Positions 29,443-45,020 of a DNA stretch of 64,000 nt are shown here, in pieces. The stretch comes from Arenibacter sp. 6A1. Lineage in GTDB: Bacteria; Bacteroidota; Bacteroidia; Flavobacteriales; Flavobacteriaceae. Every line of letters begins with the position of its first letter. The stretch's first letter is position 1. The stretch covers positions 186,001 to 250,000 of the forward strand of contig NZ_JAAXCQ010000008.1 of assembly GCF_012272855.1 (NCBI RefSeq). The letters run 5' to 3'. The notes under the pieces were generated by a model that did not search any database, had not been told where the DNA came from, and saw only the letters and a list, made by a program, of their open reading frames with translations. The position numbers and the translations under genes are program-made.

Positions 29443-29481
29443 AATAAATAAACGGTATCTTTACCGCTAAAATGTACCCTT

Positions 29482-30084
29482 ATGTTCAGTGATTTTGCCT
29501 TTAAAATATTTCAGGAAAGCATTCAAAAATACCATATCAAGGACGATGTAAATCAGCCTTTTGAAAACCCATATCCACAGGACGATATTGCTCATTTATT
29601 GTATCGTAAAAACTGGATAGATACGGTACAATGGCACTATGAGGATATTATTAGAGATCCGCAAATAGATCCGGTTGCCGCTTTAAAACTAAAACGACAG
29701 ATCGATGCCAGTAACCAGGACAGGACTGATTTGGTAGAGTATATTGACAGTTATTTTTTAAACAAATACAAGGCTGTTAAAAAACAAGACAATGCTACCA
29801 TCAATACCGAAAGTCCGGCTTGGGCTATTGACCGTTTGTCTATTTTGGCCTTAAAAGTGTACCATATGCAGGAAGAGGTTGACAGAACCGATGCTTCTGA
29901 AGGGCATATTGCCAAGTGTACTGAAAAGCTGAACGTTTTGTTAGAACAGCGAAAGGACCTTTCTACGGCCATAGACCAGTTATTGACCGATATTGAAGCT
30001 GGCGCCAAGTATATGAAGGTTTACAAGCAGATGAAAATGTACAACGACGACGAATTAAATCCGGTCCTTCGTGGGCAAAAATAA
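29482..30084 (+). CDS. DUF4254 protein
   Basis: 200 aa soluble, mostly helical, with no signal peptide. HLLYRKNWIDTVQWHYEDIIRDP near residues 38-60 and the charged C-terminus match DUF4254, a Bacteroidota family of unknown function regularly encoded upstream of GT9 glycosyltransferases. The next gene overlaps its end by 14 bp, which implies coupled translation. A TATCTTTA box near 29456 may be its own -7 element. Confidence 0.85.
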   Translation: MFSDFAFKIFQESIQKYHIKDDVNQPFENPYPQDDIAHLLYRKNWIDTVQWHYEDIIRDPQIDPVAALKLKRQIDASNQDRTDLVEYIDSYFLNKYKAVKKQDNATINTESPAWAIDRLSILALKVYHMQEEVDRTDASEGHIAKCTEKLNVLLEQRKDLSTAIDQLLTDIEAGAKYMKVYKQMKMYNDDELNPVLRGQK

Positions 30085-31135
30085 GCGTATCCAACACAAG
30101 CCCTCTCATATATTGGTCATTCGCCTATCGGCCATGGGCGATGTGGCTATGACCGTACCGGTACTCGCTGCCATGTCACAACAGTACCCTGATGTGAAAA
30201 TAACGGTACTTACCCGTGCCTTTTTTGCCCCTATGTTTGCGCAACTGCCGAATGTAACGGTATATGAAGCCGATGTGAAGGGGCAGCATAAGGGGGTATT
30301 GGGCCTTTGGAAATTGTACCGATCCCTAAAAGGCCTCGGTATTGATGCCGTTGCCGACCTGCACAATGTACTGCGCAGCAATATTCTAAAAACTTATTTT
30401 ACTTTTAGCGGCCTTCCCTTTGAACAGGTAGACAAGGGAAGGGCCGATAAAAAAGCCCTGACGGCAGCTGTCCACAAGGTATTTAAACCCCTGACGACCA
30501 CACACCAACGCTATGCAGAAGTGTTTGCGCGTCTAGGGTATCCGCTAGATTTGGAAGCCGTAAGCCTACCGGCGAAACGCCCTTTGCAAGAGAGCACCAG
30601 GAGCCTGATACAGGCGCCGACGCAACCATGGATCGGGATAGCCCCCTTTGCCGCCTTTGAAGGAAAAATGTATCCTATAGCACTAATGCAAGAAGTGGTA
30701 GGCCAATTGAATGCTACCAATGCCTATAGAATACTCCTTTTTGGAGGTGGAAAAAAAGAAGGCGAAGAATTGCAAAAATGGGAAGATGCCTACCCAAACT
30801 GCCTTAATATGGTAGGGAAAATCTCTTTTGAAGAAGAACTGGCGCTTATTTCACAGCTAGATCTAATGTTGGCCATGGATAGCGGTAATGCGCATATGGC
30901 AGCTATGTTTGGACTGCCGACCCTTACCCTGTGGGGAGTGACCCATCCTTATGCGGGATTCTACCCTTTTGGGCAACCCCTAGAACATGCCCTGATGGCC
31001 GATAGAATGCAATATCCCTTAATACCGACTTCGGTATACGGCAATAAATTTCCCCCAGGCTATGAAAACGCTATGCAGACCATAGCACCAGAGGCGGTTG
31101 TACAAAAAATTCAACATATTTTAAGCGGGAACTAG
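30071..31135 (+). CDS. Glycosyltransferase family 9 (heptosyltransferase-like)
   Basis: 354 aa. ILVIRLSAMGDVAMTVPVL at the N-terminus and DSGNAHMAAMFGLPTLTLWG near residue 275 are the two hallmarks of GT9/heptosyltransferases, which add heptose or related sugars to lipid A core in the cytoplasm. The start is GTG at 30071, inside the DUF4254 gene; the frame has no better start. It converges with the TetR gene with a 1-bp gap and no visible terminator. Confidence 0.93.
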   Translation: MGKNKRIQHKPSHILVIRLSAMGDVAMTVPVLAAMSQQYPDVKITVLTRAFFAPMFAQLPNVTVYEADVKGQHKGVLGLWKLYRSLKGLGIDAVADLHNVLRSNILKTYFTFSGLPFEQVDKGRADKKALTAAVHKVFKPLTTTHQRYAEVFARLGYPLDLEAVSLPAKRPLQESTRSLIQAPTQPWIGIAPFAAFEGKMYPIALMQEVVGQLNATNAYRILLFGGGKKEGEELQKWEDAYPNCLNMVGKISFEEELALISQLDLMLAMDSGNAHMAAMFGLPTLTLWGVTHPYAGFYPFGQPLEHALMADRMQYPLIPTSVYGNKFPPGYENAMQTIAPEAVVQKIQHILSGN

Positions 31136-31136
31136 C

Positions 31137-31751
31137 TTACACTGTCTCGTTGTGTTCCATCAGTTTAAAGTAATGTCTCAATTGGGACATATATTTGTAG
31201 CGTAGGTTTTTGGCATTTCCGTCTACCATAAGAGTCCTAATACCCATATAAGACGATATAATAAAGCTTGCTATGGCCTCGCTATCGGCATGCCTACTGA
31301 CAAAACCATCGGTCTTTCCTTTTTGCAGGACGGTGATAAGGCATACTTCCCATACTTTCAGAATATCGTTCAAGGCTCTCATAACCTCGGGATGCTTCCC
31401 GTTAAATTCATTGATGAAATTGCCGAGTTCAAAGCCATAATCAAGAAAATTGAGTTCGGCTGTTTCTAAAGATTTGTCCAAACAATCTGCAATGGTATGC
31501 AAGGGGTCTTCCTTTCCTTCTATAGGCGCTACAAGCTGACTGTACACTTTTCTGAACAACAACTGTTGTACGATGCTGATAAAATACTCTTCCTTGGAAT
31601 TAAAATGATAATAAAAGCCGCCTTTGGACAGGGAGAGTTCTTTTAAGATATCGTCTATACTGGTATTGAAATAGCCATTCTGATAAAACATTTCTAAGCC
31701 CTTGGCTTGCATCCGATGCATGGTCGCCATGCGTTTTAGATTCCTTTCCAT
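31137..31751 (-). CDS. TetR/AcrR-family regulator
   Basis: 204 aa. The helix-turn-helix is SIDDILKELSLSKGGFYYHF, with the conserved YYHF and SKEEYF ending. The C-terminal domain is of TetR type. It is monocistronic, and its target is unknown. A CCGAC/GTCGG inverted repeat 148 bp upstream is a possible operator. It is next to the arsenosugar genes but separated by about 480 bp and a terminator, so control of them is speculative. Confidence 0.9.
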   Translation of the reverse strand: MERNLKRMATMHRMQAKGLEMFYQNGYFNTSIDDILKELSLSKGGFYYHFNSKEEYFISIVQQLLFRKVYSQLVAPIEGKEDPLHTIADCLDKSLETAELNFLDYGFELGNFINEFNGKHPEVMRALNDILKVWEVCLITVLQKGKTDGFVSRHADSEAIASFIISSYMGIRTLMVDGNAKNLRYKYMSQLRHYFKLMEHNETV

Positions 31752-32157
31752 TTCGTTTTATTTTGGGGTGTAAAGACCAAGAAGTCTCTCTATAGTAACG
31801 CTATAATAATCGCATTTATCAGATTTATCGTTAAAAAGCTCATCTTTTTCGACGAACTACACAATTAGAAGGGTTTTATGCACAAAAAGTAAGGCTTCCC
31901 GACAAAATAGTCGGTTTTACAATCCGATGATCGGCTACTATAAGCTCACAAAAATAAGAAGAATAAGTGCTGTGGAGGATAAAATGTCTGTTAGTTGCCT
32001 TAGAAATAGCGCAAGAATAACTGCTTTACTTAAAAGCCTCCCTACACTAACAAAAGGCGAAACTTTTAATTTGCATAAACACAACCACTGCCCCATGCCC
32101 AAAAATTTCCGAAGAAAGCAAACTAAAGAAGGATCCCTAAAAAAATAAAGGAACTAT
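31752..32157. other. Spacer upstream of the TetR gene
   Basis: No gene is supported; a 73-codon open frame at 31927-32148 has no family resemblance. The inverted repeat CCGAC-N6-GTCGG at 31899-31914 may be a TetR operator or a weak hairpin, as TTTT follows it. Confidence 0.35.
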
Positions 32158-32208
32158 AAACCAGGAACGAAGGCAGGTACACACCTAGATTTCCGTTCCT
32201 GGTTTTTA
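32158..32208. terminator. Terminator between arsS and the TetR region
   Basis: AAACCAGGAACG (32158-32169) pairs with CGTTCCTGGTTT (32194-32205), with an inner AGGT-ACAC-ACCT hairpin. The T-run is better on the plus strand, but the position right after arsS (minus) makes it the likely arsS terminator. Confidence 0.75.
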
Positions 32209-32228
32209 AATAAGAATAATATATTTCT

Positions 32229-33284
32229 TTATGCCACGGTACCTTGGCAGCTACTACCCGCACCAGCGGTACAGCCATAACAATGCTGTGAGATTACGAT
32301 ATCGCGGTCGTTTAGCACTTCCTCGTTGTAATCTTTTAGGTGTTTGATCTTACTGGCCACTTTAAGGCCCAGCATTTGGTTAAAATCGCAGTCGTACAGC
32401 CATCCGTCCCAACTTACCGAGATGGTATTGGTACACATTACGCTGGCCACGGCCGAGGGATTATACGCCTCTACCAAGGAGTACATATAGTCCTCATAGT
32501 TTCCGGAAGCAATTAAATAATCTAAAAAACGGGCAATAGGCAGGTTGGTAATGGCAAAGAGGTTATGGAAATCAATATCAAAATCTTGTTTAAGCGCCTT
32601 TTTAAAATCGGCTTCCAAGGCAGCCTGGTTCCCTGGCAAAAAAGCTCCGGAGGGATTATAGACCAGATCGAGCCTCAGATCGCTGTCGGGCATTCCGTAA
32701 CCTACGGCATTCAATTCCTGCAGTGCCTTTATAGAACTGTCAAAAACTCCGTCGCCACGCTGCTTATCGGTTTTCCCACGGGTGTAGTGCGGCATGGAAG
32801 AGATGACGTGAATATTGTGTTTTTTAAAGAACTGTGGCAGGTCGTAATACTTCTTATTGGCCCTTATAATGGTCAGGTTAGAACGGACGATAAAATCTTT
32901 GATGCCGGCTTCGGCTGCCTGTTCTACAAACCACCTAAAGTCCGGATTCATCTCTGGTGCCCCACCGGTAAGGTCCAAGGTATGGGCGCCAGTATTGCGA
33001 ATGACCTCCAAACAAAGCTCCATGGTATCGCGGGTCATGATCTCCTTACGGTCCGGACCGGCATCGACATGGCAGTGCTCACAAACCTGGTTGCACATAT
33101 AGCCCACGTTAATTTGAAGGATTTCCAATTTCTTAGGCCGTAGCGGATACGCCCCTATCGCATCGATCTTATCCTTAAAAAAGGGAAGTTCACCCTCCTC
33201 AAAAAGGCCACCGTTAAGGATTTCCAATTGTTTATTGCTCTGAGCAAGGACATCGTGCCTTGCCTTTAGTGATTTTGTCGACAT
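32229..33284 (-). CDS. arsS: Arsenosugar biosynthesis radical SAM protein ArsS
   Basis: About 351 aa from the ATG at 33284; a TTG at 33299 adds five residues. The radical-SAM Cys triad is CNQVCEHCHVD (CxxxCxxC). A C-terminal Cys-rich region (CYGCTAGAGSSCQG) could bind an extra cluster, as in the ArsS/DUF3641 family. ArsS joins the adenosyl group of SAM to arsenic in the path to arsenosugars. It is the last gene of a three-gene run. The 128-bp spacer before it is filled with three hairpins. Confidence 0.94.
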   Translation of the reverse strand: MSTKSLKARHDVLAQSNKQLEILNGGLFEEGELPFFKDKIDAIGAYPLRPKKLEILQINVGYMCNQVCEHCHVDAGPDRKEIMTRDTMELCLEVIRNTGAHTLDLTGGAPEMNPDFRWFVEQAAEAGIKDFIVRSNLTIIRANKKYYDLPQFFKKHNIHVISSMPHYTRGKTDKQRGDGVFDSSIKALQELNAVGYGMPDSDLRLDLVYNPSGAFLPGNQAALEADFKKALKQDFDIDFHNLFAITNLPIARFLDYLIASGNYEDYMYSLVEAYNPSAVASVMCTNTISVSWDGWLYDCDFNQMLGLKVASKIKHLKDYNEEVLNDRDIVISQHCYGCTAGAGSSCQGTVA

Positions 33285-33309
33285 GCTAAAACTATTCAAT
33301 TATTGTATG

Positions 33310-33405
33310 CCCCTTTTCGGGGAATGCCAAAAGGGATGTCCCTTTTGGCCGTGTTGCTGTTGCTGGTATTTCCCAGGCCCAAGATAGTAGTCCTTGGCTT
33401 GGGAA
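33310..33405 (-). other. Three tandem hairpins in the spacer before arsS
   Basis: CCCC (33310-33313)/GGGG (33319-33322); GCCAAAAGGGA (33326-33336)/TCCCTTTTGGC (33339-33349), a perfect 11-bp stem; and an imperfect stem TTCCCA..GCC..AAG (33370-33383) with CTTGGCTTGGGAA (33393-33405). They fill the 128-bp spacer between the peroxidase-like gene and arsS. Confidence 0.7.
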
Positions 33406-33412
33406 GGCGTCT

Positions 33413-33748
33413 TTACATAGACAGCTTATCGTACTTTTTCATCATTTGTACCCCATGTACCAAGGTAGCCCCGCTTTCAATGGCCGCTCCTACGTGTACA
33501 GATTCCATCATTTCTTCCTTGGTAATGCCTCTTTGCAAGCCGTCCTTGGTATAGGCATCTATGCAATAGGGACATTTTACCACATGCGCCACCGCCAGGG
33601 CGATCAACGATTTTTCGCGGGCACTAAGCGCCCCTTCTTCAAATACTTTTCCGTAATAGTCAAAAAATTTGCTCCCCAGTTCCTCGCTCCATTCAGAGAT
33701 TTTACCGAATTTTCGTAAATCTGCCGGATCGTAATATGTGTCTGCCAT
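33413..33748 (-). CDS. Arsenosugar-associated AhpD/CMD-like protein
   Basis: 111 aa. The carboxymuconolactone-decarboxylase/AhpD motif with its Cys pair is VVKCPYCIDAYTKDGLQRG (about residues 57-75), and HVGAAIESGATLVHG follows. This matches the arsenosugar biosynthesis-associated peroxidase-like family found beside arsS. CxxC proteins of this fold reduce peroxides or disulfides; the exact reaction in this pathway is not known. ATG start at 33748. Confidence 0.9.
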   Translation of the reverse strand: MADTYYDPADLRKFGKISEWSEELGSKFFDYYGKVFEEGALSAREKSLIALAVAHVVKCPYCIDAYTKDGLQRGITKEEMMESVHVGAAIESGATLVHGVQMMKKYDKLSM

Positions 33749-33941
33749 GTTATAAATATGTATTAAATAGGTATATAATTAAAGGATGTTATCCCTGTTT
33801 TTGTTCCATAACCGTACCCCTTGTTCTTCTAAAAACAAGGAAATACAATAACTACATGCCCGTGCAATAGGCGGTAGTCCTTTGGTAATGCTATTGGATG
33901 TTTAGGTGGTTGTTCGCCTCAAAAAGTATTGGGCAACCTTC

Positions 33942-34643
33942 CTATAAGAAGGCCCTTCCCAGCCTGGGAGACCCCTTATTGTAGTATTGGTTAGAAAAGA
34001 TAGTATTCTTCCCCTGAGGCCTGTGAAATATGGCCTTCCCCGTGCTGTGCAATAAGGAAATTAGCAGCTGTACAATTCTACCTCCGCTACAAGAGGCTTC
34101 CCTGATAAGGCGTTTTAGATCGTCCCAGCGATCTAGGTCCAATAAAGGGCGGAGCCTTACAACAGAAGTTTGTGTCTTGGCAATAAGGGCCGTAATTTGG
34201 GTGGCCACCGATTTGGTCTGCCATGGCAAGGCCAAAAAGCTATGGGCATTAAAACAAGATTTCTGTAGGCCCATCAGGTAAAATCCACCGTCTTTGGAGG
34301 GTCCAAGTATAAAATGGCCTTCGTCTAGCTGCTTGGCCGCCTGTACAATATCCGAGGCCCTCAGCAAGGGCGCATCGTTCCCAATAGTGATCAGTTGGGT
34401 AAAGCCCATGTTAAAAACGGAGGCAATGGCATGTACAAAACGTTCCCCAAAACTAGCCCCTCTCTGCTCCTTTTCCGTAAAATGAAAATAGGGCAGCTTG
34501 GTTTTTTTTACCGTTTTCAGGGTATGTTGGCTCAAAGCCTCAAAAATAACGGCACCATGCTGTAGGGGTTTATGCTTCATTTCCTCTTGGGAAGAATGGG
34601 CAAAAACCAAAATGGCGGTACTATGTAAGGCAGTTCGGGGCAT
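33942..34643 (-). CDS. TIGR04282-type arsenosugar glycosyltransferase (DUF2064)
   Basis: About 233 aa from the ATG at 34643 (MPRTALHSTAILVFAHSS); the frame extends to a TTG at 34700 but the ATG fits the family. The Rossmann-like GT-A core shows LITIGNDAPLLRASDI and FILGPSKDGGFYLMGL, both diagnostic of the DUF2064/TIGR04282 transferases linked to arsenosugars. First gene of the arsenosugar run; the 193-bp gap to the next gene holds a CCTTGTT/AACAAGG hairpin at 33819-33840. No arsM methyltransferase is in the window. Confidence 0.88.
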   Translation of the reverse strand: MPRTALHSTAILVFAHSSQEEMKHKPLQHGAVIFEALSQHTLKTVKKTKLPYFHFTEKEQRGASFGERFVHAIASVFNMGFTQLITIGNDAPLLRASDIVQAAKQLDEGHFILGPSKDGGFYLMGLQKSCFNAHSFLALPWQTKSVATQITALIAKTQTSVVRLRPLLDLDRWDDLKRLIREASCSGGRIVQLLISLLHSTGKAIFHRPQGKNTIFSNQYYNKGSPRLGRAFL

Positions 34644-34727
34644 TATCACTTCTTCTTTAGTAAAAATACGATAAATAAGGCTAGTAGTTTGGTCGGCCAA
34701 TAAAGTTTTTCCTTACAACTGTCTTTT

Positions 34728-34807
34728 GGGCGTTCCCCCCTGCGGCGGTCGGGCACTCCGCTATATCCCTCGCTCCGCTACGGGGATGCCGCTGCGATCC
34801 CTAACGC
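34728..34807 (+). repeat. Dispersed 80-nt repeat, copy 3
   Basis: Same length and order as copy 1: GGGCGTTCCC start, inner ATCCC and GGGGAT arms, and a GATCCCTAACGC end. It lies upstream of the arsenosugar genes. The flank CAGTGAACAATGAACAATTA is shared with copy 2. Confidence 0.78.
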
Positions 34808-34868
34808 GAAATTCAGTGAACAATGAACAATTAGAAGAGAGAAGAGAAAAAAGAAAAGAGAGAAGAGA

Positions 34869-34913
34869 GGACCGAGCGGAGAATGCAACGATTTGCATTT
34901 GGAGTAAGGGGCC
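34869..34913 (+). repeat. AATGCAA/TTGCATT palindromic element, copy A
   Basis: GGACCGA leads into the palindrome AATGCAA-CGAT-TTGCATT (34882-34899) and then AAGGGGCC. Copy B at 35104-35148 has the same order. Confidence 0.7.
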
Positions 34914-35103
34914 TAATCAATGTACAATAAGCAGTAAACAATTAGCAATGAAAAAAGTAATCAGTAAACGGTAAACAGCAGTCAGTACCCTCCCCCGTTA
35001 AACCGCGGGACTACCGGACGATATGATTTTTGCTACAATAAAAAGTACTGCTTCTCTCAAATGGTTAAAATCAAAAGAATCCGGCCTATTTTAATTTTCG
35101 TAA

Positions 35104-35320
35104 GGACCGAACGAAAAATGCAACGATTTGCATTTACAGCGAGGGGCCAGCCGGCGCGTTGGCTTTCACAGCGGGTGGCGGAAGCCGTCCAAAGAGCATT
35201 TCACCCTTGTGAAAGCGGTCTGGGCGGTGCGGCCGTGGAAAGTGCGTAGATTTTTAGAAAATGAAAATCAGCCTAGCGTTTTTTCGTCCTTTTTTGGGCG
35301 ATGCAAAAAAGGACAAGAAC
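35104..35320 (+). repeat. AATGCAA/TTGCATT element copy B with GC-rich composite tail
   Basis: GGACCGA, the palindrome at 35117-35134, then GAGGGGCC. It continues into GC-rich sequence with a hairpin TTTCAC (35199-35204)/GTGAAA (35209-35214) and a 10-bp stem GTCCTTTTTT (35286-35295)/AAAAAAGGAC (35305-35314). The last hairpin with its AGCCTAGCG lead resembles repeats often met in flavobacterial intergenic DNA. It may be a mobile or structured-RNA element. Confidence 0.6.
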
Positions 35321-35377
35321 TAAGATATTCAAGAAAGAAGAATGATCCTTAAAAAAGAAAAAAATCGAAATAAAACA

Positions 35378-35770
35378 TCAACTAGATTTGTATAAGGACA
35401 ATAGAAATATAGTTATATAATATCTACGACCCCGGATACATAAGCTTACCAGCCTGCTCCTGATAGGAAAATCATCGATTATTCGTGGCTCCATAAACCC
35501 ATAAGCTTTATAAACGCGGTCCTTGTAATGCTCCAAAATCGTCCTTTTTTTCTGCAAGGTAAATAGTAAGTTTTTCCGAGTATGCCTTCTTATTTTTTCG
35601 AGTACTATGATAGTTTTAAGCATCAAAATAATCCAATAACCCTTCGGGAAAAACAAGAGCCAATAGAAAGGCAGCATTAAGCTGGGGTAACTGTCTAGTT
35701 TTCCAACACAAAAAAAAACAGAAATATTGACATTGATCCTTAAGTTCTTGTACGTCAAAAAACATATCAA
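35378..35770 (-). pseudogene. Remnant of an ISAon1-like transposase N-terminal region
   Basis: An open frame of 130 codons whose second half (YKAYGFMEPRIIDDFPIR, then SRLVSLCIRGRRYY) resembles the N-terminal region of ISAon1/ISL3-type transposases, where IxDFPIRG-like and RxRR motifs precede the zinc-binding part. The first half is hydrophobic and unlike a transposase, and the catalytic domain is absent. I read it as an insertion-sequence fragment, not a working gene. The resemblance is from memory. Confidence 0.45.
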
Positions 35771-35831
35771 ATAAGAGCTTAAGTTTAATTATTACGGGTA
35801 TCTTTGTTTCCCATTTTTAAGATATAATAAA

Positions 35832-36235
35832 ATGGATATGATCTTTTTTTATATTTATTGAAGGCCTTGGTTTACCTTTTACTACTTATCCCCAGGATAA
35901 AAAATCTAGTATAAAAGCAGGAGTAAACTTTAGTGGGTTACATAGTTTAGAAGCAAAAGAAAAAAATAAGAGTAATTTTTGGAGTTACATATAAATTGGG
36001 TAAACGATACCATTTCTATTCAGCCTGAATTAGTATTTTCTTCACAAGGGGCTGCAAAATCATAAACAACGGAAAAACTATAAATTTAAATTATCATAAC
36101 ATTCCTATTCTAGCACTGTATAAATTATTTTTTTTTAAAAGGAGAGCTATTAAAACAGGTCCCCAATTTGGTGTCTTATTAAGTGATAAAAACGGTGATA
36201 CCGATTTTATAGATTCAAATAATTTAAATAAATGA
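35832..36235 (+). pseudogene. Broken outer-membrane beta-barrel (PorT-type) gene
   Basis: Three frames must be joined. DKKSSIKAGVNFSGLHSLEA (from 35896), VNDTISIQPELVFSSQGAAKS (ending about 36065) and TINLNYHNIPILALYKLFFF, GPQFGVLLSDKNG (to the TGA at 36233-36235) together match the order of PF13568-type barrels: Gxn-FSG, IQPEL-SSQGA, LNYxNIPxL, GPQFGxLLS. A signal-like start near 35832 is out of frame. The C-terminal half of the barrel is missing. At least three frameshifts and a 3' truncation show decay. It lies directly against the island start. Confidence 0.75.
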
Positions 36236-36245
36236 TCATTAACTA

Positions 36246-37349
36246 ATGATTCCAATAACAAAACCCTTTCTCCCTCCAAAGGAAGAATATGAAAAAATGA
36301 TTTCCATTATTTGGGAATCACATTGGCTTACCAATTCTGGTCCTTTAGTAGAAAAATTAGAAAAAGAATTATTAAAAGAATTAGCAGTTTCTAATTTATT
36401 GTTTGTTGTGAATGGCACTATGGCCTTACAATTAGCAATAAAAGCACTTTGCCTTGAAGGTGAAATCATTACAACTCCCTTCTCTTTTGTAGCAACAACA
36501 AGCAGTATTGTTTGGGAAAATAATAGACCCGTTTTTGTTGATATTGATTCTGATACGCTAAATATCGATGCTTCAAAAATAGAAGCAGCCATTACACCAA
36601 AAACAGTTGCTATTGTTGCAACACATGTTTTTGGAAACCCTTGTGATGTTGTTGAAATTGAAAAAATTGCCAAAAAACACAAGCTTAAAGTTATTTATGA
36701 TGGAGCACATGCTTTTGGAGTAAAAATCGAAGGTAAGTCAATTTTTGAATTTGGAGATATTTCTATTTGTAGTACACACGCAACCAAAATATACCACACT
36801 ACAGAAGGGGGTTTTATTGTTACCAAAGACAAAAAACTATTAAAGGAATTAAGACTGATGATTAACTTTGGTTTTAAGAGTGCTGTTTCTTTTGCTAATT
36901 TGGGAATTAACGCAAAAAATTCTGAGTTCCACGCGGCTATGGGTTTGGTTAACCTTAAATATATTGAAGAAAATTGGGAAAACAGAAAAAAGATTAGTCT
37001 TCTTTATGACAGTATTTTAAGTGGCTCTATAAAAAAGCAGTCGTGGGCAGATAATGCTACTATCTCGTACGCTTATTACCCGGTTATTTTTAATTCTGAA
37101 ATGGAATTAGAAGTTTGTATTGAATCACTTTTAAAAGAAAATATAATCCCCAGAAGATATTTTTATCCACTACTTTCAGAGTCTTTACCTTATGTGGCGT
37201 ATGTAAAGCTTCCTATTGCCGAAGACGTTTCTAGAAGAGTTCTTTGTCTTCCCTTGTACAATGAGTTAGCTCTTGAAGTAGTAGAAAGAATAGGGCGAGT
37301 AATTTGCAACTCTATTAAAGACAGTGCAGTTATCAGCTATAAAGAGTGA
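36246..37349 (+). CDS. DegT/DnrJ/EryC1/StrS sugar aminotransferase
   Basis: 367 aa PLP enzyme. The PLP-binding Asp is in YDGAHAFG (Asp152), and the Schiff-base Lys is Lys181 in STHATKIYHTTEGG. GTMALQLAIKAL is the phosphate-binding helix. Members convert keto-sugar nucleotides to amino sugars; the dTDP-4-keto-6-deoxyglucose made by rfbA/rfbB (encoded 20 kb away) is a plausible substrate, giving a VioA- or Fdt-type amino sugar. First gene of the AT-rich seven-gene island; its start is 10 bp beyond the broken barrel gene, so the promoter is not obvious. The next gene overlaps by four bases. Confidence 0.93.
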   Translation: MIPITKPFLPPKEEYEKMISIIWESHWLTNSGPLVEKLEKELLKELAVSNLLFVVNGTMALQLAIKALCLEGEIITTPFSFVATTSSIVWENNRPVFVDIDSDTLNIDASKIEAAITPKTVAIVATHVFGNPCDVVEIEKIAKKHKLKVIYDGAHAFGVKIEGKSIFEFGDISICSTHATKIYHTTEGGFIVTKDKKLLKELRLMINFGFKSAVSFANLGINAKNSEFHAAMGLVNLKYIEENWENRKKISLLYDSILSGSIKKQSWADNATISYAYYPVIFNSEMELEVCIESLLKENIIPRRYFYPLLSESLPYVAYVKLPIAEDVSRRVLCLPLYNELALEVVERIGRVICNSIKDSAVISYKE

Positions 37350-38794
37350 GTGTACTACAAAACTTATTAAAAAAGGGACTTATCTGGTCCTTTGTAGATA
37401 ATGTACTTTTAAAGGGGATTACCTTTATTGTAACAATTTTCCTTGCGCGTATTTTAACACCAAATGACTTTGGCCTTTTGGGTATAATTACAATTTTTAT
37501 AAGTTTAGGAAATGCTATTATTGAGGGAGGAATGGGGAATTCTATTATTAGAGATAATAAAACCACCTCCTCAGATTACAATGCCGTTTTTTATGGTAAT
37601 TTAATTATAAGTCTTTTACTTTATCCTATTTTATTTTTTACAGCTCCGATTTTATCTGAATATTTTAATAATGATCTTATAGTTCCTTTAATTAGGGTTT
37701 ATGGGCTAAGTTTTATTATTTCTGCTTTTTTTTACATACAGTATAGTATTTTTCTGAAGGAGATGTCTTTTAAAAAAATAACGGCGTTAAACGGGCCTGC
37801 CGTAATAACTGGTGCTATTGTTGGGTTAGTAAGTGCGTATGTAGGCAAAGGAGTATGGAGTTTGGTTTACATGCAGTTATCAACCTTGGTTTTTAAAGTG
37901 TTTTTTTATTGGATGTTTTCTAGTTGGACACCACAAGTAGGTTTTTCTTTTAAAGTACTGAAAAAGCATTTAAATTTTGGTTACAAACTAATGATTTCTT
38001 CCATAATGGACGCTGCCATGCGCGAAGCTTATTCGTTTATTATCGGAAAACATTTTTCCATAAAAACTTTGGGTCATTTTAACCATTCAAAAAGTTTTAG
38101 AAATTACCCAGTTAATTTATTGAGTACTGTTGTTTCTAGTGTAACATTTCCATTGCTCTCAAAAATTCAGGACGATAAAGAAAAAGTAGGTAGGCTTTAC
38201 GCCAAAATTTTAAGGAGTATGTTTTTTATTATTACCCCATTTATGGTTGCATTAATAGTTGTAGCCAAACCTTTGTTTCTCTTATTGTTTACCGCAAAAT
38301 GGCTACCGGCAGTTCCGTATTTTCAGTTATTGGCAATAGCAGGAACCCTAATTCCAATACATATTTGTAACCTAAATATTTTTAAGATTTTTAACCGAAC
38401 AGATTTGTTTTTAAAACTAGAGGTAATTAAAGTACTACTTGTTTGTGTTTCATTAGCTATAGGGTATTTTTGGGGGATTTTTGGATTGTTATATGCCAAT
38501 ATAGGCAGTTCTATTTTAGGGTTATTTGTGAATACCTACTACGGAAAAAAGTTGATAAATTACAGTACGTTAGATCAGTTGTTGGATATGTTTCCAATAG
38601 TCATATTTGCCAGTGTATCTTATTTTTTAGGTACTTATGCACTTTTACAATCAGACAGTCTACACATCATTTTTCAAATAACTGTTGGAGTTGTTTTTAC
38701 GATGGTTTGCTATTTAACCTTAGCCTTTTTGTTTAAAAGTAAATCTTTAAATGAGGTTAAAGGTTTAGGTAAACTAATTTTAAAGCGTAATTAA
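37346..38794 (+). CDS. Wzx-like oligosaccharide flippase
   Basis: 482 aa with 12-14 hydrophobic segments. The N-terminus LLKKGLIWSFVDNVLLKGITF is typical of the Wzx/RfbX group (MOP superfamily), which flips undecaprenyl-linked repeat units. The start is GTG in the GTGA overlap with the aminotransferase stop. It is encoded inside the island and is separate from the flippases at 8310 and 56174, so the island may have its own export step. Confidence 0.92.
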   Translation: MSVLQNLLKKGLIWSFVDNVLLKGITFIVTIFLARILTPNDFGLLGIITIFISLGNAIIEGGMGNSIIRDNKTTSSDYNAVFYGNLIISLLLYPILFFTAPILSEYFNNDLIVPLIRVYGLSFIISAFFYIQYSIFLKEMSFKKITALNGPAVITGAIVGLVSAYVGKGVWSLVYMQLSTLVFKVFFYWMFSSWTPQVGFSFKVLKKHLNFGYKLMISSIMDAAMREAYSFIIGKHFSIKTLGHFNHSKSFRNYPVNLLSTVVSSVTFPLLSKIQDDKEKVGRLYAKILRSMFFIITPFMVALIVVAKPLFLLLFTAKWLPAVPYFQLLAIAGTLIPIHICNLNIFKIFNRTDLFLKLEVIKVLLVCVSLAIGYFWGIFGLLYANIGSSILGLFVNTYYGKKLINYSTLDQLLDMFPIVIFASVSYFLGTYALLQSDSLHIIFQITVGVVFTMVCYLTLAFLFKSKSLNEVKGLGKLILKRN

Positions 38795-38796
38795 GA

Positions 38797-39531
38797 ATGA
38801 AAATTGGAATAATGCAAGCTTATTTTTTTCCCTATATAGGATACTTTCAGTTGATAGATGCATCAGATGAATTTATTTTATATGAGCATGTAGCGTTTCG
38901 AAAAAAATCATGGATTACAAAAAATAGAATTTTAGATAAAGGACGTAAACTACCTATTGAGATTAAAATTCCAGTAATTAAAAAATGTTCTTATAAAACT
39001 ATAAGCGAAATTGAAATAAATGGTACTTACTGGAAAAGACCGTTGTTAAAGTCGATTTATTTTAACTATAAAAAAGCAGCGTATTTTAAAGAGGTTTATC
39101 CGCTAATTGAGAAGTGTATACAGACAGATACAAGCTCGTTACATGATTACAACAGTGCTATTATCAAAGAAATTTGTAATTATTTAGATCTTAAAACCAA
39201 AATAAAATCAAAAAATGAAACATTTTTAAAGCTCGAAGCTAGTTTGTTAAATGATGAAATTATAAAACAAGAAGTTAAGTCTTTAAGAATTATTGAAATA
39301 TGTAGGCAACAAAAAGCACATACGTATATTAATGCTGCTGGTGGAATCGAGCTTTACGATAAAGCCTATTTTAAGAAGAATAACCTCTCGCTTTTTTTTA
39401 TCAACACAAAAGAATATTCATACAATCAGTTTAATATGGAATTTGCACCACACCTCTCCATTATTGATGTGTTAATGCATAATGGAAAAGATGGTACAAA
39501 GAAGTTGATTAAAAACTACAGCTTAATATAG
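38797..39531 (+). CDS. WbqC-family protein
   Basis: 244 aa. MKIGIMQAYFFPYIGYFQLI is the conserved start of the WbqC family (PF08889), and FRKKSWITKNRI and TYINAAGGIELYD are also conserved. Family members occur in O-antigen and natural-product loci, often with amino-sugar genes. Their reaction is not settled; an acyl or aminoacyl transfer onto an amino sugar has been considered, which would fit this island. No signal peptide, so cytosolic. Confidence 0.9.
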   Translation: MKIGIMQAYFFPYIGYFQLIDASDEFILYEHVAFRKKSWITKNRILDKGRKLPIEIKIPVIKKCSYKTISEIEINGTYWKRPLLKSIYFNYKKAAYFKEVYPLIEKCIQTDTSSLHDYNSAIIKEICNYLDLKTKIKSKNETFLKLEASLLNDEIIKQEVKSLRIIEICRQQKAHTYINAAGGIELYDKAYFKKNNLSLFFINTKEYSYNQFNMEFAPHLSIIDVLMHNGKDGTKKLIKNYSLI

Positions 39532-39533
39532 TG

Positions 39534-40745
39534 ATGACTTTAGAAAAATCAGTTCAAGAATTTATCAAAAGCAAAAAGGATTATTATCAACAATGGATTT
39601 TTGACGAACCTATTGTGATCAGTGCAGCTCATAATGCCGATATTAGTAAACTTCAAAAAATAATGTATAAACTTATAAAGGAGTTTGTAATAGGTTATAA
39701 GAACTATAAACATTTAATGCCAGTATGTGCAGGAGTTGAAAAAGTATTGAATGTTTTTAATCAAAAAGAATATAAAATAGGGACGTATAGAACGGATTTT
39801 GTTTACGATACCAACAATCAAGTAAAGCTAATAGAAATCACCTGTCGTTTTGCTTTAAATGGGGTGTTTTTATCTGGATTAATGGATGCTGTGGCAAGAG
39901 AAACTAAACCTATAAGTTTGCAGAATGTAAAAATAAAAGATCAATATTCACCTATTTATAAACATCTAAAAGAATATTTAAATGAAGTAACATCTATTTG
40001 TATATTAAAAGGTGAAGATGTACGAAATGAATCAAAATTATATACAGATATTCTAAAAAGAACAGGGCTAGTAGTTAACGAAGTTTTGTATACAGAAATA
40101 GATCAAAATTTTGATAAATTAGAAAAGGCATGGGTTGTAAGTGAACTTTCCTTTGATGAAATTTTATCTTTTTCTAAAGACACCTTAGAGAAATTAATCT
40201 CAGCTAATCTTATAAATGATTTTAGAACGGTGTTTTTAATACACGATAAAAGATTTTTTTCTGTATTAGGTAAAAAGGAATTACAAAATAAGGTTTTAAC
40301 CCAAGAAGAAATATCATTTTTTGAGAAGTATTATATTCCAACTTATACTGCAAATGAAGCCGAAGATATCTGGAAAAACGCCAAAGAAAATAAAAACGAA
40401 TGGATTATAAAGCACAGAGCTTTAGGTAAAAGTCAACAGATTTATGCAGGATTAGTAACTCCTTTAGAAGAATGGGCTGCCATTTTTGGAAGTACCGATT
40501 TAAAAGATTTTATTTTGCAAAAATGGATTCCTCAAAAAACAATCAAAGGAACAATTAACGGCGAAGTATTTCATGATTTTGTAACCGGGACAGCCTTGTT
40601 TTTTGATGACCATTATTTTGGATTTGGAGATTTTAGAACTTCATCTCACCCGGTTACTAATAAAGTAGATCATAGAAAGGCAACCGGTTTAATTCTAGAT
40701 GAAGAGATAGAAAATAATGGTGAAATTGCAAATTATATACCATAG
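39534..40745 (+). CDS. ATP-grasp-like protein of unknown function
   Basis: About 403 aa; the ATG at 39534 is preferred to the GTG at 39531, which overlaps the WbqC stop. I do not recognise a named family. The middle (YRTDFVYD...KLIEITCRF) resembles the pre-ATP-grasp substrate region with Asp and Glu ligands. The C-terminal third (EWIIKHRALGKSQ, DFILQKWIPQK, DFVTGTALFFDDHYFG) fits an ATP-grasp nucleotide fold with its Lys and a late acidic strand. Such enzymes join a carboxylate to an amine or thiol by an acyl phosphate. In this setting it may activate the group that WbqC adds. Function is inferred. Confidence 0.65.
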   Translation: MTLEKSVQEFIKSKKDYYQQWIFDEPIVISAAHNADISKLQKIMYKLIKEFVIGYKNYKHLMPVCAGVEKVLNVFNQKEYKIGTYRTDFVYDTNNQVKLIEITCRFALNGVFLSGLMDAVARETKPISLQNVKIKDQYSPIYKHLKEYLNEVTSICILKGEDVRNESKLYTDILKRTGLVVNEVLYTEIDQNFDKLEKAWVVSELSFDEILSFSKDTLEKLISANLINDFRTVFLIHDKRFFSVLGKKELQNKVLTQEEISFFEKYYIPTYTANEAEDIWKNAKENKNEWIIKHRALGKSQQIYAGLVTPLEEWAAIFGSTDLKDFILQKWIPQKTIKGTINGEVFHDFVTGTALFFDDHYFGFGDFRTSSHPVTNKVDHRKATGLILDEEIENNGEIANYIP

Positions 40746-40750
40746 AAACT

Positions 40751-41632
40751 ATGCACGCAAAAAAAATATCAGCAGCAGAAATGGAAATGTTGCCTACGGA
40801 AAATCAGATTTTAGAATATGAGAAGAAAGGTTGGTATGTGGGTAATTTTATACTGCCTGAAGAAATTATAGACAAGGCTGAAAAAGGTGCAAAAGATTTT
40901 TACAATGGTTTAAAAGATTATCATCTTTCTGAATTTACAGGGATTGCAGATGATGTTTTTGATGATACAGCGGTGATTAGAAATAATGAATTTGTAACGC
41001 TCCAAAAAAAGGAATTGCAGGCCTTAGGTTTTCATCAGCTTATAACGGCAACTGCTGCAAAACTAGCTCGCACAGATGAAATTCGATTGTTTGCAGATTC
41101 TTTGATTAACAAATTGCCTACAAATGCAAAAAAAGAAGGAGTTGTTGGGTGGCATTCAGATAAAGCCTATTGGCCAACTTGTACTTCACAAAACATGGTG
41201 ACAGCTTGGATTCCTCTGCAAGACGTTACTATAGATATGGGGCCCCTTTTATATATTGACCAAAGTAATCTATGGAAAGATGAAAAAGAATTAAAATCTT
41301 TTTTCTCATTTAACAACCAAGACCTTAGCTCCTTTGAAAATTATTTGTCAAAAAGTAAATCTAACCATATTAAATCGGCTATGGTTTTAAAGAAAGGGCA
41401 AGTAAGTTTTCATAATTGTAATACCATTCACGCCAGTTATCCGAATGTAAGTAATAAGAACCGTATGGCTTTAGCGATGCATTTTCAAGATAAATCTAAT
41501 CAATACCAAAAGGCATATAACGATAATGGAGATCTTATTGTTATTGGCTACGATCAAATTTGCGAAAAAGATTCAGACGGAAACCCTGATTATTCCGATA
41601 AAAAAATATTTCCTAAAATTATTAAATTTTAA
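40751..41632 (+). CDS. Phytanoyl-CoA dioxygenase-family (Fe/2OG) hydroxylase
   Basis: 293 aa. The iron triad is His135-x-Asp137 (GWHSDKAYW) and His227 (CNTIHASYP), with a 2-oxoglutarate-binding Arg238 (NRMALAMHF). The jelly-roll core TAWIPLQDVTIDMGPLLYI is typical of PhyH. These enzymes hydroxylate free or CoA- or carrier-linked small molecules. The full set of ligands suggests activity. It follows the ATP-grasp-like gene by 5 bp and precedes the GT2 gene by 1 bp. Confidence 0.92.
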   Translation: MHAKKISAAEMEMLPTENQILEYEKKGWYVGNFILPEEIIDKAEKGAKDFYNGLKDYHLSEFTGIADDVFDDTAVIRNNEFVTLQKKELQALGFHQLITATAAKLARTDEIRLFADSLINKLPTNAKKEGVVGWHSDKAYWPTCTSQNMVTAWIPLQDVTIDMGPLLYIDQSNLWKDEKELKSFFSFNNQDLSSFENYLSKSKSNHIKSAMVLKKGQVSFHNCNTIHASYPNVSNKNRMALAMHFQDKSNQYQKAYNDNGDLIVIGYDQICEKDSDGNPDYSDKKIFPKIIKF

Positions 41633-41633
41633 T

Positions 41634-42638
41634 ATGGATTTTAAGACTTTTAAAACAGCATATGAAAAAAGTCCTGTTCTAGAATATGTAAACAAACGCG
41701 CAGGAAAAGTGCCTTTGGCTACAATTAAGTTAATAACATACAATCATGCCAAGTATATAGCAACCTGTCTAGATTCCTTATTAAAACAGAAAACGAATTT
41801 TGATTTTGAAATATTAATTGCCGAGGATGAATCATCTGATGGCACTAGAGAAATTTGTAAAGAATATGCTGACAAGTATCCAGATAAAATTAGGCTTTTA
41901 TTAAATTCCAGAGCAAACAATATTGCTATAAACGGAAAGCCTTCTGGAACCTTTAATAGTGTTTTTGCAAATTTTTCAGCCAAGGGAAAGTACCTAACAA
42001 CTATTGAGGGAGATGACTATCTGATGGATGAAAACTCACTCCAAAAAAGAGTCGAATTTTTGGAGAACAATGAACGATTTGTAGCTTGTTTTCATAATAC
42101 AAAAGTTATAGAACAAGAAACATCAAAAGAACAACATGTTTTTAACTTCAAGAGTGATAGAACATTTGAGGCAGACGATTTGTTGAAGGTTTCCATACAT
42201 ACCGCATCACTCTTGTATAGAAATAACCTTATCAAGTTGTTTGATGAGGATATGAAAAATATTGTATGTGGAGATTTTATTTTAAGAGGAAAGTTAGCCG
42301 AATTCGGTGCTGCAAAGTTTTTATACGATGTTAAGCCAGCAGTGTATAGAAGGCATGACCAAGGTATTTTTAGTCCTATTCCTTTAGAAGCGCAAACCAA
42401 GCTAGCCATTGATGGGTTGCAATATTTAATAAACTATTATAAAACGAAAAAATCCAATTTAGATATTAAAAAAAATGCTTCGTATTTATACTTGTCTTAC
42501 TTTGTTTCTCACCTTATGAAAGATAAAAAGATAAAATTAAACTATCTAAAAAAAAGTTTGTTGTATGGAAAGGAAGTGAATTATTCACCTTACCAAATAA
42601 TTAAAGAATTTTTATTTTTCAAATTATATCGATTGTAG
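41634..42638 (+). CDS. Glycosyltransferase family 2
   Basis: About 334 aa from the ATG at 41634, one base after the preceding stop; the same frame runs further upstream inside the dioxygenase gene and that part is not used. LITYNHAKYIATCLDSLL, EILIAEDESSDGT and the acidic EGDDYLMD place it in GT2 with a GT-A fold and a DxD-like metal site. It is the only glycosyltransferase of the island, so it likely adds one sugar, perhaps the modified amino sugar, to a lipid carrier. Confidence 0.92.
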   Translation: MDFKTFKTAYEKSPVLEYVNKRAGKVPLATIKLITYNHAKYIATCLDSLLKQKTNFDFEILIAEDESSDGTREICKEYADKYPDKIRLLLNSRANNIAINGKPSGTFNSVFANFSAKGKYLTTIEGDDYLMDENSLQKRVEFLENNERFVACFHNTKVIEQETSKEQHVFNFKSDRTFEADDLLKVSIHTASLLYRNNLIKLFDEDMKNIVCGDFILRGKLAEFGAAKFLYDVKPAVYRRHDQGIFSPIPLEAQTKLAIDGLQYLINYYKTKKSNLDIKKNASYLYLSYFVSHLMKDKKIKLNYLKKSLLYGKEVNYSPYQIIKEFLFFKLYRL

Positions 42639-42642
42639 TATT

Positions 42643-43458
42643 ATGACCAATACTTTAATACAAAATATCAATTATTTAGATTATAAAGATTCAAATTTAA
42701 GTTATTTTGATTTAGCAGTCCGAATAAAAAAAGACCTTGATTCTGTAGGTTACATTGTTATTCAGAATTTTAATGTGGATACAGATAATGTTGAAGAAGC
42801 GAATCAAAAATTTCTCGAATTATCTGAATTAATTGGAACACCTATTTCTCATGATGGCAATAATAAAATCATTTGGGATATTAAATCAGCATCTAAATCT
42901 AAAAGTTTTATAAAGACTTATTCGGAACACAGTCATGAAGCAGAACTTCATACGGATAGTCAATATAGTTTTTACCCCGAAGATTATTTTGGTTTGTTGA
43001 CCTTAAAAAAAGCGGAATGTGGTGGTGGAGTATCGTCTCTTTTAAGTTTAAAAAATATATTAAAAACGCTTACTGAATTAGAGAATGCTAAGTCATTAAT
43101 AGAAATTCTTTCTTCAACAGATTATCCTTTTATAGTTCCTAATGTGTTTAAAAAACGTAAAGAAGATAAGGTTGAATTCAACTATGGACCAATATTAAGA
43201 GAAAATGAAATTCGTTTTAGAGTAGATACCTTTGAAAAAGCTTTAATGCACAAGGAAGCCATTTGTTCTACAGCACAAATTGAAGCCTATCAAATTTTAA
43301 AAGAAGTAATTCTTAACAATAGTTTTACTCAATATTTTTATTTAGAACCTAAAGATTTAATTTTTATAAATAATAAAACAATGTTGCATGGAAGAAGCGA
43401 GTTTTCCGATGAAAAAAGACATCTAATAAGGATCAGGATGAATAAAAATAGTGAATAA
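42643..43458 (+). CDS. TauD/TfdA-family (Fe/2OG) dioxygenase
   Basis: 271 aa. The iron triad is His103-x-Asp105 (ELHTDSQYS) and His249 (MLHGRSEF), followed by the Arg-rich RHLIRIR that binds 2-oxoglutarate. LLTLKKAECGGGVSSLLSL matches the family core. TauD relatives oxidise amino-acid- and sulfonate-type molecules and often hydroxylate amino acids in natural-product pathways. It is the last gene of the island and is unrelated in sequence to the PhyH-type enzyme two genes earlier. Confidence 0.9.
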   Translation: MTNTLIQNINYLDYKDSNLSYFDLAVRIKKDLDSVGYIVIQNFNVDTDNVEEANQKFLELSELIGTPISHDGNNKIIWDIKSASKSKSFIKTYSEHSHEAELHTDSQYSFYPEDYFGLLTLKKAECGGGVSSLLSLKNILKTLTELENAKSLIEILSSTDYPFIVPNVFKKRKEDKVEFNYGPILRENEIRFRVDTFEKALMHKEAICSTAQIEAYQILKEVILNNSFTQYFYLEPKDLIFINNKTMLHGRSEFSDEKRHLIRIRMNKNSE

Positions 43459-43634
43459 ATGCACAATCCGGTGAGAACGAACACCCATCCCCTAGAGAGC
43501 GGATAGTCATTCCGAAATAAAACGGACTTCCGTTCCAGGGTGGTTATACCGCAGCATATCTCTCCCCTTTAAAATAGAAAGTAGTTGGCACAAAACGAAC
43601 CGAAATATCCGTTCCCTAGCGGTCATTATCCAAC

Positions 43635-43666
43635 AAAAAAAGGCTGTCGTTCCCGACAGCCTTTTT
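43635..43666. terminator. Bidirectional terminator between the island and purD
   Basis: AGGCTGTCG (43641-43649) pairs with CGACAGCCT (43654-43662) around TTCC, with A and T runs outside. It ends both the island operon (plus) and purD (minus). The 176 bp before it (43459-43634) hold no gene. Confidence 0.92.
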
Positions 43667-43702
43667 AATAGTTATCTGCCCATAGGGCATTGAGGTTTCT
43701 TC

Positions 43703-44974
43703 TTATAGATCGAAACCAAGGTCCTTACGGAAGTACATTTCATCGAAATGTACTTTCTCTATATTTTTATAAGAGGTTTTTAAAGCCTCTTTAAAGTCGG
43801 CACCATAGGCGGTAACGGCCATGACCCTACCTCCATTGGTTACTACTTTTCCGTCTTTTAGTTGAGTCCCTGCATGGAAAACCACGGCGTCGTCAACAGT
43901 ATCAAAACCGGTGATTACCTTGCCGTTTACATAGGCTCCTGGGTAACCGCCAGACACCATCATAACGGTGGTAGCGGTACGCTCGTCTATTTCTAGGTTA
44001 ATGCTGTCCAAGGTCTGGTTGCCCACGGCCTGAAAAACTTCTACTAAATCGTTTTTGATCCTTGGAATTACCACTTCGGTCTCCGGATCGCCCATACGAA
44101 CGTTGTATTCTATCACTTTAGGGTCGTCACCAACTTTTATAAGTCCGATAAAGACAAATCCCTTATACGGCATATTGTCCTTTTTAAAGCCTTCTACGGT
44201 AGGTTTTACGATACGCTCGTGTACCTTGTCCATAAATGCCTTATCGGCAAAAGGAACTGGAGAAATAGCGCCCATACCTCCTGTATTCAGTCCGGTATCG
44301 CCTTCCCCTATTCGTTTGTAATCCTTGGCAGTTGGCAATACTTTATAGCCTTCACCATCGGTCAGTACAAAACAACTAAGCTCAATACCGTCCAAGAACT
44401 CCTCTATCACCACAGTAGTACTGGCGTTGCCAAATTTGGCATCGACCAACATGGTTTTCAATTCGTCCTTTGCCTCTTGTAGGTCCTGAAGGATCAGCAC
44501 CCCTTTTCCAGCGGCCAAACCATCGGCTTTTAGTACGTATGGCGGTTGTAAACTTTCTAAAAAGGCATATCCTTTTTCCAATGTCTCGGCAGTAAAGCTT
44601 TCATAGGCAGCGGTAGGAATGTTATGACGCATCATAAACTCCTTGGCAAACTGCTTGGAGCCTTCCAAGGTTGCAGCTAATTTTTGAGGTCCAATAACCG
44701 GAATATCCTTTAAGGCTTCATCGTTTAGGAAAAAATCGTGTACCCCGTTCACCAACGGATCTTCTGGGCCTACGACCACCATATTGATGCCTTCGGACAG
44801 TACCGCTTTTTTAATAGCCTCAAAATCGTTTACCCCTATCGGTAGGTTGGTAGCAATTGCTGCCGTTCCTGCATTACCGGGAGCTACAAAAAGATTGGAT
44901 AGTTTTGTACTTTGTTTCAGTTTCCATGCTATGGTATGTTCGCGCCCACCAGCACCAAGAATAAGGATGTTCAT
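43703..44974 (-). CDS. purD: Phosphoribosylamine-glycine ligase
   Basis: 423 aa GAR synthetase, the second step of purine synthesis, joining glycine to 5-phosphoribosylamine with ATP. NILILGAGGREHTIAWKL is the N-terminal GARS domain, and KADGLAAGKGVLI and EEFLDGIELSCFVLTDG form the ATP-grasp. YNVRMGDPETEV is the classic C-terminal motif. Start ATG at 44974. A TATTTTTG box at 44991-44998 (minus) may be its -7 element. Confidence 0.97.
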   Translation of the reverse strand: MNILILGAGGREHTIAWKLKQSTKLSNLFVAPGNAGTAAIATNLPIGVNDFEAIKKAVLSEGINMVVVGPEDPLVNGVHDFFLNDEALKDIPVIGPQKLAATLEGSKQFAKEFMMRHNIPTAAYESFTAETLEKGYAFLESLQPPYVLKADGLAAGKGVLILQDLQEAKDELKTMLVDAKFGNASTTVVIEEFLDGIELSCFVLTDGEGYKVLPTAKDYKRIGEGDTGLNTGGMGAISPVPFADKAFMDKVHERIVKPTVEGFKKDNMPYKGFVFIGLIKVGDDPKVIEYNVRMGDPETEVVIPRIKNDLVEVFQAVGNQTLDSINLEIDERTATTVMMVSGGYPGAYVNGKVITGFDTVDDAVVFHAGTQLKDGKVVTNGGRVMAVTAYGADFKEALKTSYKNIEKVHFDEMYFRKDLGFDL

Positions 44975-45020
44975 GCTTCAAAAATTTGTTCAAAAATACG
45001 GTTTGCAATGGAAATATCCA

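Follow-up and report, generated by a model that had tools for sequence, protein, structure and literature searches.

What is made by the seven tightly packed genes at positions 36246–43458 of the 64,000-nucleotide stretch of Arenibacter sp. 6A1 analysed here (contig NZ_JAAXCQ010000008.1, positions 186,001–250,000; the window)? An earlier note, made from the letters alone, had described them as an AT-rich island for a glycan with a modified acyl-amino sugar. Seven plus-strand open reading frames (ORFs) with overlaps or gaps of 1–5 bases were confirmed by ORF list and Pfam scan, and the immediate flanking genes were found on the minus strand, both as that note had it. Its family assignments also agreed with ours: a DegT keto-sugar aminotransferase, a single Polysacc_synt_3 flippase, WbqC, a PhyH and a TauD oxygenase and a single glycosyltransferase (GT2) were recovered by Pfam, and the fourth protein was placed among ATP-grasp ligases by a family profile. 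We give an even chance to the reading that the island works as a portable module which makes a single decorated amino sugar for a surface glycan, by the pathway proposed below.

The island was confirmed as a real unit, beyond chance. BLAST of window 33901–45000 against the Arenibacter aquaticus locus returned one 7247-base block of 90.9% identity (window 36213–43459). All seven genes are intact and free of internal stops in both genomes, with ratios of nonsynonymous to synonymous substitution (dN/dS) of 0.10–0.27 between them. The flanks differ: in A. aquaticus genes for an M20 peptidase and a sigma-70-type protein lie near the seven, and purD and the exopolysaccharide (EPS) genes are on another contig. 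In A. nanhaiticus the island occupies the same site as in the window, beside the EPS locus. The fourth (ATP-grasp) gene was found in 3 of 18 Arenibacter genomes, 2 of 299 genomes of a family sample and 4 of 395 genomes of a phylum sample, the window's own being counted each time. At E ≤ 1e-25 the TauD profile matched one of the 395, again the window's own. No relative of the ATP-grasp protein was found in the plasmids or viral contigs searched.

For relatives of the gene set, a single genome-contig scan with two strict peptide patterns was used. It found four loci, from which the genera named here derive, so the real spread is probably wider. The full set of seven stands together in three Arenibacter species. 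An indivisible gene set was not supported, the genes being split in Flavicella sediminum. One Flavicella locus holds WbqC, ATP-grasp, PhyH and TauD in the island's order; it is flanked on one side by ATP synthase genes with a regulator, and on the other by genes of no visible sugar role (named by eye). The second, 1.3 Mb away, reads rmlB-rmlA-flippase (42%)-DegT (60%)-ATPgrasp_Ter-pyruvyl transferase-GT2 (38%); its rmlA was assigned by a 59% match to the window rmlA. The ATPgrasp_Ter gene immediately after DegT (L092 7335–8612) encodes a different ATP-grasp protein. In a Saprospiraceae metagenome-assembled genome (MAG), TauD and ATP-grasp genes stand side by side near a contig end. Among 19 related genomes, DegT was present in all four with the ATP-grasp gene and in one of the 15 without it; in view of the relatedness, the counts are given with no probability.

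By sequence, the fourth gene (39531–40745) encodes a Cp1B-like ATP-grasp carboxylate-amine ligase. Its product had no Pfam match at E ≤ 1. The family profile (A7) matched Cp1B at E 6.4e-28 in two stretches, and weakly matched homoglutathione synthetase (E 5.6e-5); the single protein matched Cp1B in the PDB at E 1.6e-4. R87, D89 and E102 align with Cp1B R139, D141 and E163, correspondences which assume that the chain numbering is 15 higher than the paper's, as it seems to be. In the available excerpts of PMC12568646, Cp1B couples trans-epoxysuccinate to an L-amino acid through an acyl phosphate, and E-64 synthesis pairs an Fe/2-oxoglutarate oxygenase with an ATP-grasp enzyme. A phosphoglycerate mutase match of the island protein was dismissed as chance (17 vs 378 bits). 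In another family of the phylum (G680), a relative of the ligase is clustered with DegT (46%), PhyH, a methyltransferase, a short-chain dehydrogenase/reductase (SDR), a ketoacyl synthase (KAS III), a PglD/hexapeptide protein and GT2. This layout is like that of the Flavobacterium psychrophilum R-group genes, as far as excerpts of PMC6519341 describe them.

The first gene (36246–37349) encodes a DegT-family aminotransferase of VioA/DesI type (PF01041 E 7e-82, 275.9 bits, cut-off 19.8). Its predicted reaction is the conversion of dTDP-4-keto-6-deoxyglucose (dTDP, deoxythymidine diphosphate) to dTDP-4-amino-4,6-dideoxyglucose (dTDP-Qui4N). It is 45% and 44% identical to proteins annotated as VioA in RefSeq in two Escherichia coli strains (PM22 for the former) and 46–59% identical to DegT proteins of six loci in its own phylum; its best PDB match was 2po3 (E 7e-52). 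The 59% relative (L052) itself lies near rmlA/rmlB and adjoins WbqC. For the sugar supply the earlier note had proposed rfbA/rfbB. Both are nearby on the minus strand: rmlA (rfbA) at 62251–63108 (TIGR01207, 470 bits, cut-off 360.65), a possible supplier of dTDP-glucose, and rmlB (rfbB) from 63213 past the window end at 64000 (TIGR01181, 463.7 bits, cut-off 365.1; full match at G000:C59:249213-250205), a possible supplier of dTDP-4-keto-6-deoxyglucose. However, RmlC (61125–61670) and RmlD (60343–61203) are encoded there too, so the set may mainly serve rhamnose.

The third gene (38797–39531; PF08889, 210.9 bits, cut-off 21.3) encodes WbqC, a predicted aminoacyl:amino-sugar ligase with a BshC-like fold and the best candidate for amino-acid attachment to the sugar amine. 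The predicted WbqC structure was found to have the BshC Rossmann core fold. WbqC lies immediately after DegT in five of eight long WbqC loci, those five coming from the island's own bacterial order, and also in E. coli O121. A Cp1B-like gene could be recognised neither in the compared stretches of those five loci nor in the annotation of O121. At E ≤ 1 the protein matched PF08889 only, and not the BshC family PF10079. Window wbqC gave no match in E. coli DNA at E ≤ 1; vioA led to the O121 locus instead. A WbqC family member was found in 111 of 119 relatives searched. Most of these matches belong to a short class (L032–L049; frames of about 200–240 residues, below 116 bits), in which a neighbour gene of one family was present in 18 of 18 compared loci; the scanned example was signal peptidase I. 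WbqC was also seen on six IMG/VR viral contigs (L058–L063), where one scanned gene nearby is a GNAT in L058, and two in L060 belong to the hexapeptide transferases and the PhyH oxygenases.

Both oxygenases are of Fe(II)/2-oxoglutarate type. PhyH (40751–41632; PF05721 E 2e-21) keeps the metal-binding motif H135-x-D137, H227, and also R238; its best PDB matches were SnoK and MysH. TauD (42643–43458; PF02668 E 1.8e-20) keeps H103-x-D105, H249, and is conserved in Flavicella and the Saprospiraceae MAG. In the PDB its best matches, all weak, were to a predicted hydroxylase and to arginine hydroxylases; in NCBIfam they were to trimethyllysine and butyrobetaine dioxygenases. At most, this suggests amino-acid-like or carboxylic acid substrates for PhyH and TauD. 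The PhyH protein of L017 is genuine, but MAFFT misplaced its motif (26%), and the residue statements do not extend to it. The flippase (Wzx, MOP superfamily; 37346–38794; PF13440 E 2e-83) is 42% identical to flippases adjoining DegT in Flavicella (L092) and in an Arenibacter locus (L093). An O-glycosylation flippase label (NF058658) was rejected (274 bits, cut-off 720). The GT2 gene (41634–42638; PF00535 E 2e-21) was started at the ATG common to A. aquaticus, the longest ORF beginning at 41526; the Flavicella relative of its product (38%) lies near DegT.

We infer all substrates, the order of steps and export as follows, from the genes present, their conservation, the selection on them, their linkage in relatives and resemblances of sequence or fold. 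RmlA and RmlB, encoded outside the island, would make dTDP-4-keto-6-deoxyglucose, which DegT would aminate to dTDP-Qui4N. WbqC would aminoacylate the 4-amine. The free amine of the aminoacyl group would be acylated with a carboxylic acid by the Cp1B-like enzyme, a position in which some other loci use a GNAT acetyltransferase, and PhyH and TauD would oxidise either the acid or the amino acid, by hydroxylation or epoxidation. The sugar would be passed by GT2 to a lipid-linked acceptor whose synthesis starts with genes located elsewhere, and the flippase would export the product. The earlier note had the acid joined to the amino sugar and assigned no step to WbqC. A ligase family was indeed found, but with WbqC as the likelier aminoacylator the ATP-grasp enzyme more likely acylates the aminoacyl group than the sugar itself.

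Among the closest known systems is the O-antigen locus of E. coli O121 (rfbB-rfbA-DegT-WbqC-GNAT-wzx), which holds relatives of DegT (41%), WbqC (35%) and GT2 (28% identical) in one cluster. It has a GNAT gene where the island has ATP-grasp, PhyH and TauD, and its wzy and rml genes make it a complete O-antigen set. The O121 antigen contains Qui4N with N-acetylglycyl (PMC3210612). The DegT-WbqC-GNAT trio seems to make N-acetyl-aminoacyl-Qui4N. In the island the gene after WbqC is ATP-grasp, not GNAT; since ATP-grasp, PhyH and TauD stand in GNAT's place, a 4-N-(acyl-aminoacyl) sugar, oxidised once or twice, would result. Acyl-aminoacyl groups do exist: N-[(R)-3-hydroxybutyryl]-L-alanyl-Qui4N is listed with a Hafnia alvei reference (PMC3210612). 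The E-64 (cp1) cluster shares with the island a family-level Cp1B match and the combination of ATP-grasp with an Fe/2-oxoglutarate oxygenase; the island differs in having linked sugar genes, no ANL amide synthetase among its seven proteins, and T at the N165 position. The F. psychrophilum R-group genes (for Qui2NAc4NR) are likewise strain-variable acyl-group genes for a 4-amino sugar in a related bacterium. There, in the excerpts of PMC6519341, the acyl chain is predicted to be the product of KAS and acyl carrier protein genes and to be added by a PglD-like acyltransferase, and those excerpts describe no WbqC/ATP-grasp route. BshC, from bacillithiol synthesis, is like WbqC in predicted fold across nearly the whole of WbqC, and both would couple an amino acid to an amino sugar. 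It is unlike WbqC in that no sequence similarity was found and in being about twice as long (507–536 residues in nine relatives); the excerpted review PMC4360819 gives it a coiled-coil domain. The open-licence literature yielded no described locus with the island's gene set, leaving the earlier note's statement to that effect uncontradicted.

Several observations weigh against the decorated-sugar module or against the ligase roles assigned within it. The Flavicella WbqC-ATP-grasp-PhyH-TauD cassette has no adjoining sugar genes. The nearby rml genes form a complete rhamnose set, compatible with dTDP-Qui4N without singling it out, and DegT scored below the NCBIfam equivalog cut-off for DesI (TIGR04427; 246.3 vs 650 bits). 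Island and O121 flippases gave no match at E ≤ 1e-5. For WbqC and BshC no sequence relation was detected by hhalign (probability 0.1), the WbqC profile matched no BshC in the PDB sequences (E ≤ 10), and a Foldseek search returned nothing at E ≤ 0.001, so the link between them is one structural alignment of one model. Three of the eight long WbqC loci have no DegT directly before WbqC; in one of these (L051) a less similar DegT lies two genes farther along. In the ATP-grasp protein, one of four tested Cp1B residues is changed (N165 to T104; G in L017–L019), and its AlphaFold 2 model was poor, with a predicted local distance difference test (pLDDT) score of 57.7, too low for a fold search. The most distant ATP-grasp relatives (G644, scanned; G548, likened by eye) lie beside a radical SAM protein, a methyltransferase, GT2 and a sub-threshold AMP-binding match, possibly a small-molecule locus. 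In these clusters (L018 6707–13129, L019 5579–11866) the order is radical SAM/SPASM-methyltransferase-270-residue protein-ATP-grasp-GT2-AMP-binding-like, and the 270-residue protein had no Pfam match.

Three other explanations were weighed. ATP-grasp ligases form amides with many amines. The island enzyme could thus join a hydroxylated carboxylic acid straight to the amino sugar, with WbqC otherwise employed (in sugar transfer or acyl handling), and in G680 DegT and the ATP-grasp gene do share one cluster with no WbqC recognised in 16 kb. We consider this somewhat unlikely, for DegT and WbqC adjoin each other in five of eight loci and in O121 where no Cp1B-like gene was recognised, and the amine substrate of Cp1B is an L-amino acid (PMC12568646, excerpts). 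An unlikely alternative, in our judgement, is that WbqC, ATP-grasp, PhyH and TauD form a pathway for a small molecule, an E-64-like pseudopeptide, and that the adjoining Arenibacter sugar genes serve another product or glycosylate that molecule. The free-standing Flavicella cassette, the adjacent TauD and ATP-grasp genes of the Saprospiraceae contig, the Cp1B relation and the pairing of oxygenase with ATP-grasp in E-64 synthesis (PMC12568646, excerpts) are in its favour. However, an ANL-family match, required for E-64, is absent among the seven proteins (Pfam scan), the Flavicella rml locus holds relatives of the island's DegT, flippase and GT2, and the seven genes are kept together in three Arenibacter species.

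The remaining alternative concerns the target and is compatible with the other readings: the island would decorate the neighbouring EPS (46–64 kb) and not a glycan of its own. The Pfam scan found no polymerase or initiating transferase among the seven proteins, so the island's sugar must go onto a chain begun elsewhere, and the island adjoins the EPS locus in the window and in A. nanhaiticus. In A. aquaticus, however, the island and the purD/EPS genes are on different contigs, and the island brings a flippase in addition to the one in the EPS locus; this target appears rather doubtful. From 43703 to 64000 the window holds purD and then, on the minus strand, the EPS locus, which comprises a WcaJ-like initiating transferase, a WecG-type glycosyltransferase, a Wzy_C protein, further glycosyltransferases, a pyruvyl transferase, its flippase, an N-acetylmannosamine (ManNAc) dehydrogenase, wecB and rmlDCAB.

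The AT-richness that the earlier note had stressed holds to the left, where 7.2-kb stretches starting at or before window 30001 have a GC content of 0.397–0.431 against 0.304 for the island. The EPS locus at 49–58 kb is equally or more AT-rich (0.26–0.32 per kb), so composition alone fails to distinguish the island. Beside purD, 18 Arenibacter loci of 1.5 kb each were compared: 11 have a homologue of window gene 28510–29442, two have the island and five have neither. The island's left neighbours (block 28510–34700, from a DUF2064 gene to gene 28510–29442) are in opposite orientation in A. aquaticus, so that in the window lineage the island marks one end of an inverted block. A short repeat lies at 34866–34913 and 35103–35162, near the left flank, with several copies in A. 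nanhaiticus (L007). Upstream, 35653–36229 has stops in all six frames and is 72% identical to A. aquaticus in a second BLAST block; it is perhaps part of the moved block. A tRNA-borne insertion was rejected, no tRNA lying within the window. No Bacteroidetes-type promoter (TTG-N17-23-TAnnTTTG) was found in 35301–36300, and scans for sigma-70 promoters (41 vs 38.5 expected) and terminators (5 vs 4.0 expected) showed no excess. An inverted repeat with a T run at 43637–43666, between the last island gene and purD, was read directly. It is a possible terminator for either neighbour and was not among the sites listed by the terminator scan.

Surface glycans are well known to carry acylated 4-amino sugars. 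In the open-licence literature no account of an enzyme route for amino-acid attachment to 4-amino sugars was found, nor, judging by titles and abstracts, any paper linking WbqC, Qui4N, BshC and ATP-grasp. Gene order in five loci and E. coli O121, together with the BshC fold match, points to WbqC as the enzyme that attaches the amino acid. We tentatively suggest, as a possibility, that WbqC is a BshC-like aminoacyl ligase for nucleotide-linked amino sugars and that, with the Cp1B-like ligase, it forms a line independent of ribosomes and non-ribosomal peptide synthetases, in which dTDP-Qui4N is given an oxidised pseudodipeptide for the surface, possibly with an E-64-like epoxide or a hydroxyl. 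The Cp1B type of ATP-grasp enzyme is known from protease inhibitors of fungi; the island places one in a glycan locus. The island could also illuminate BshC, whose activity had not yet been shown in vitro according to excerpts of a 2015 review (PMC4360819). If true, the aminoacyl-ligase reading of WbqC would suggest a function for an unexplained and widespread family.

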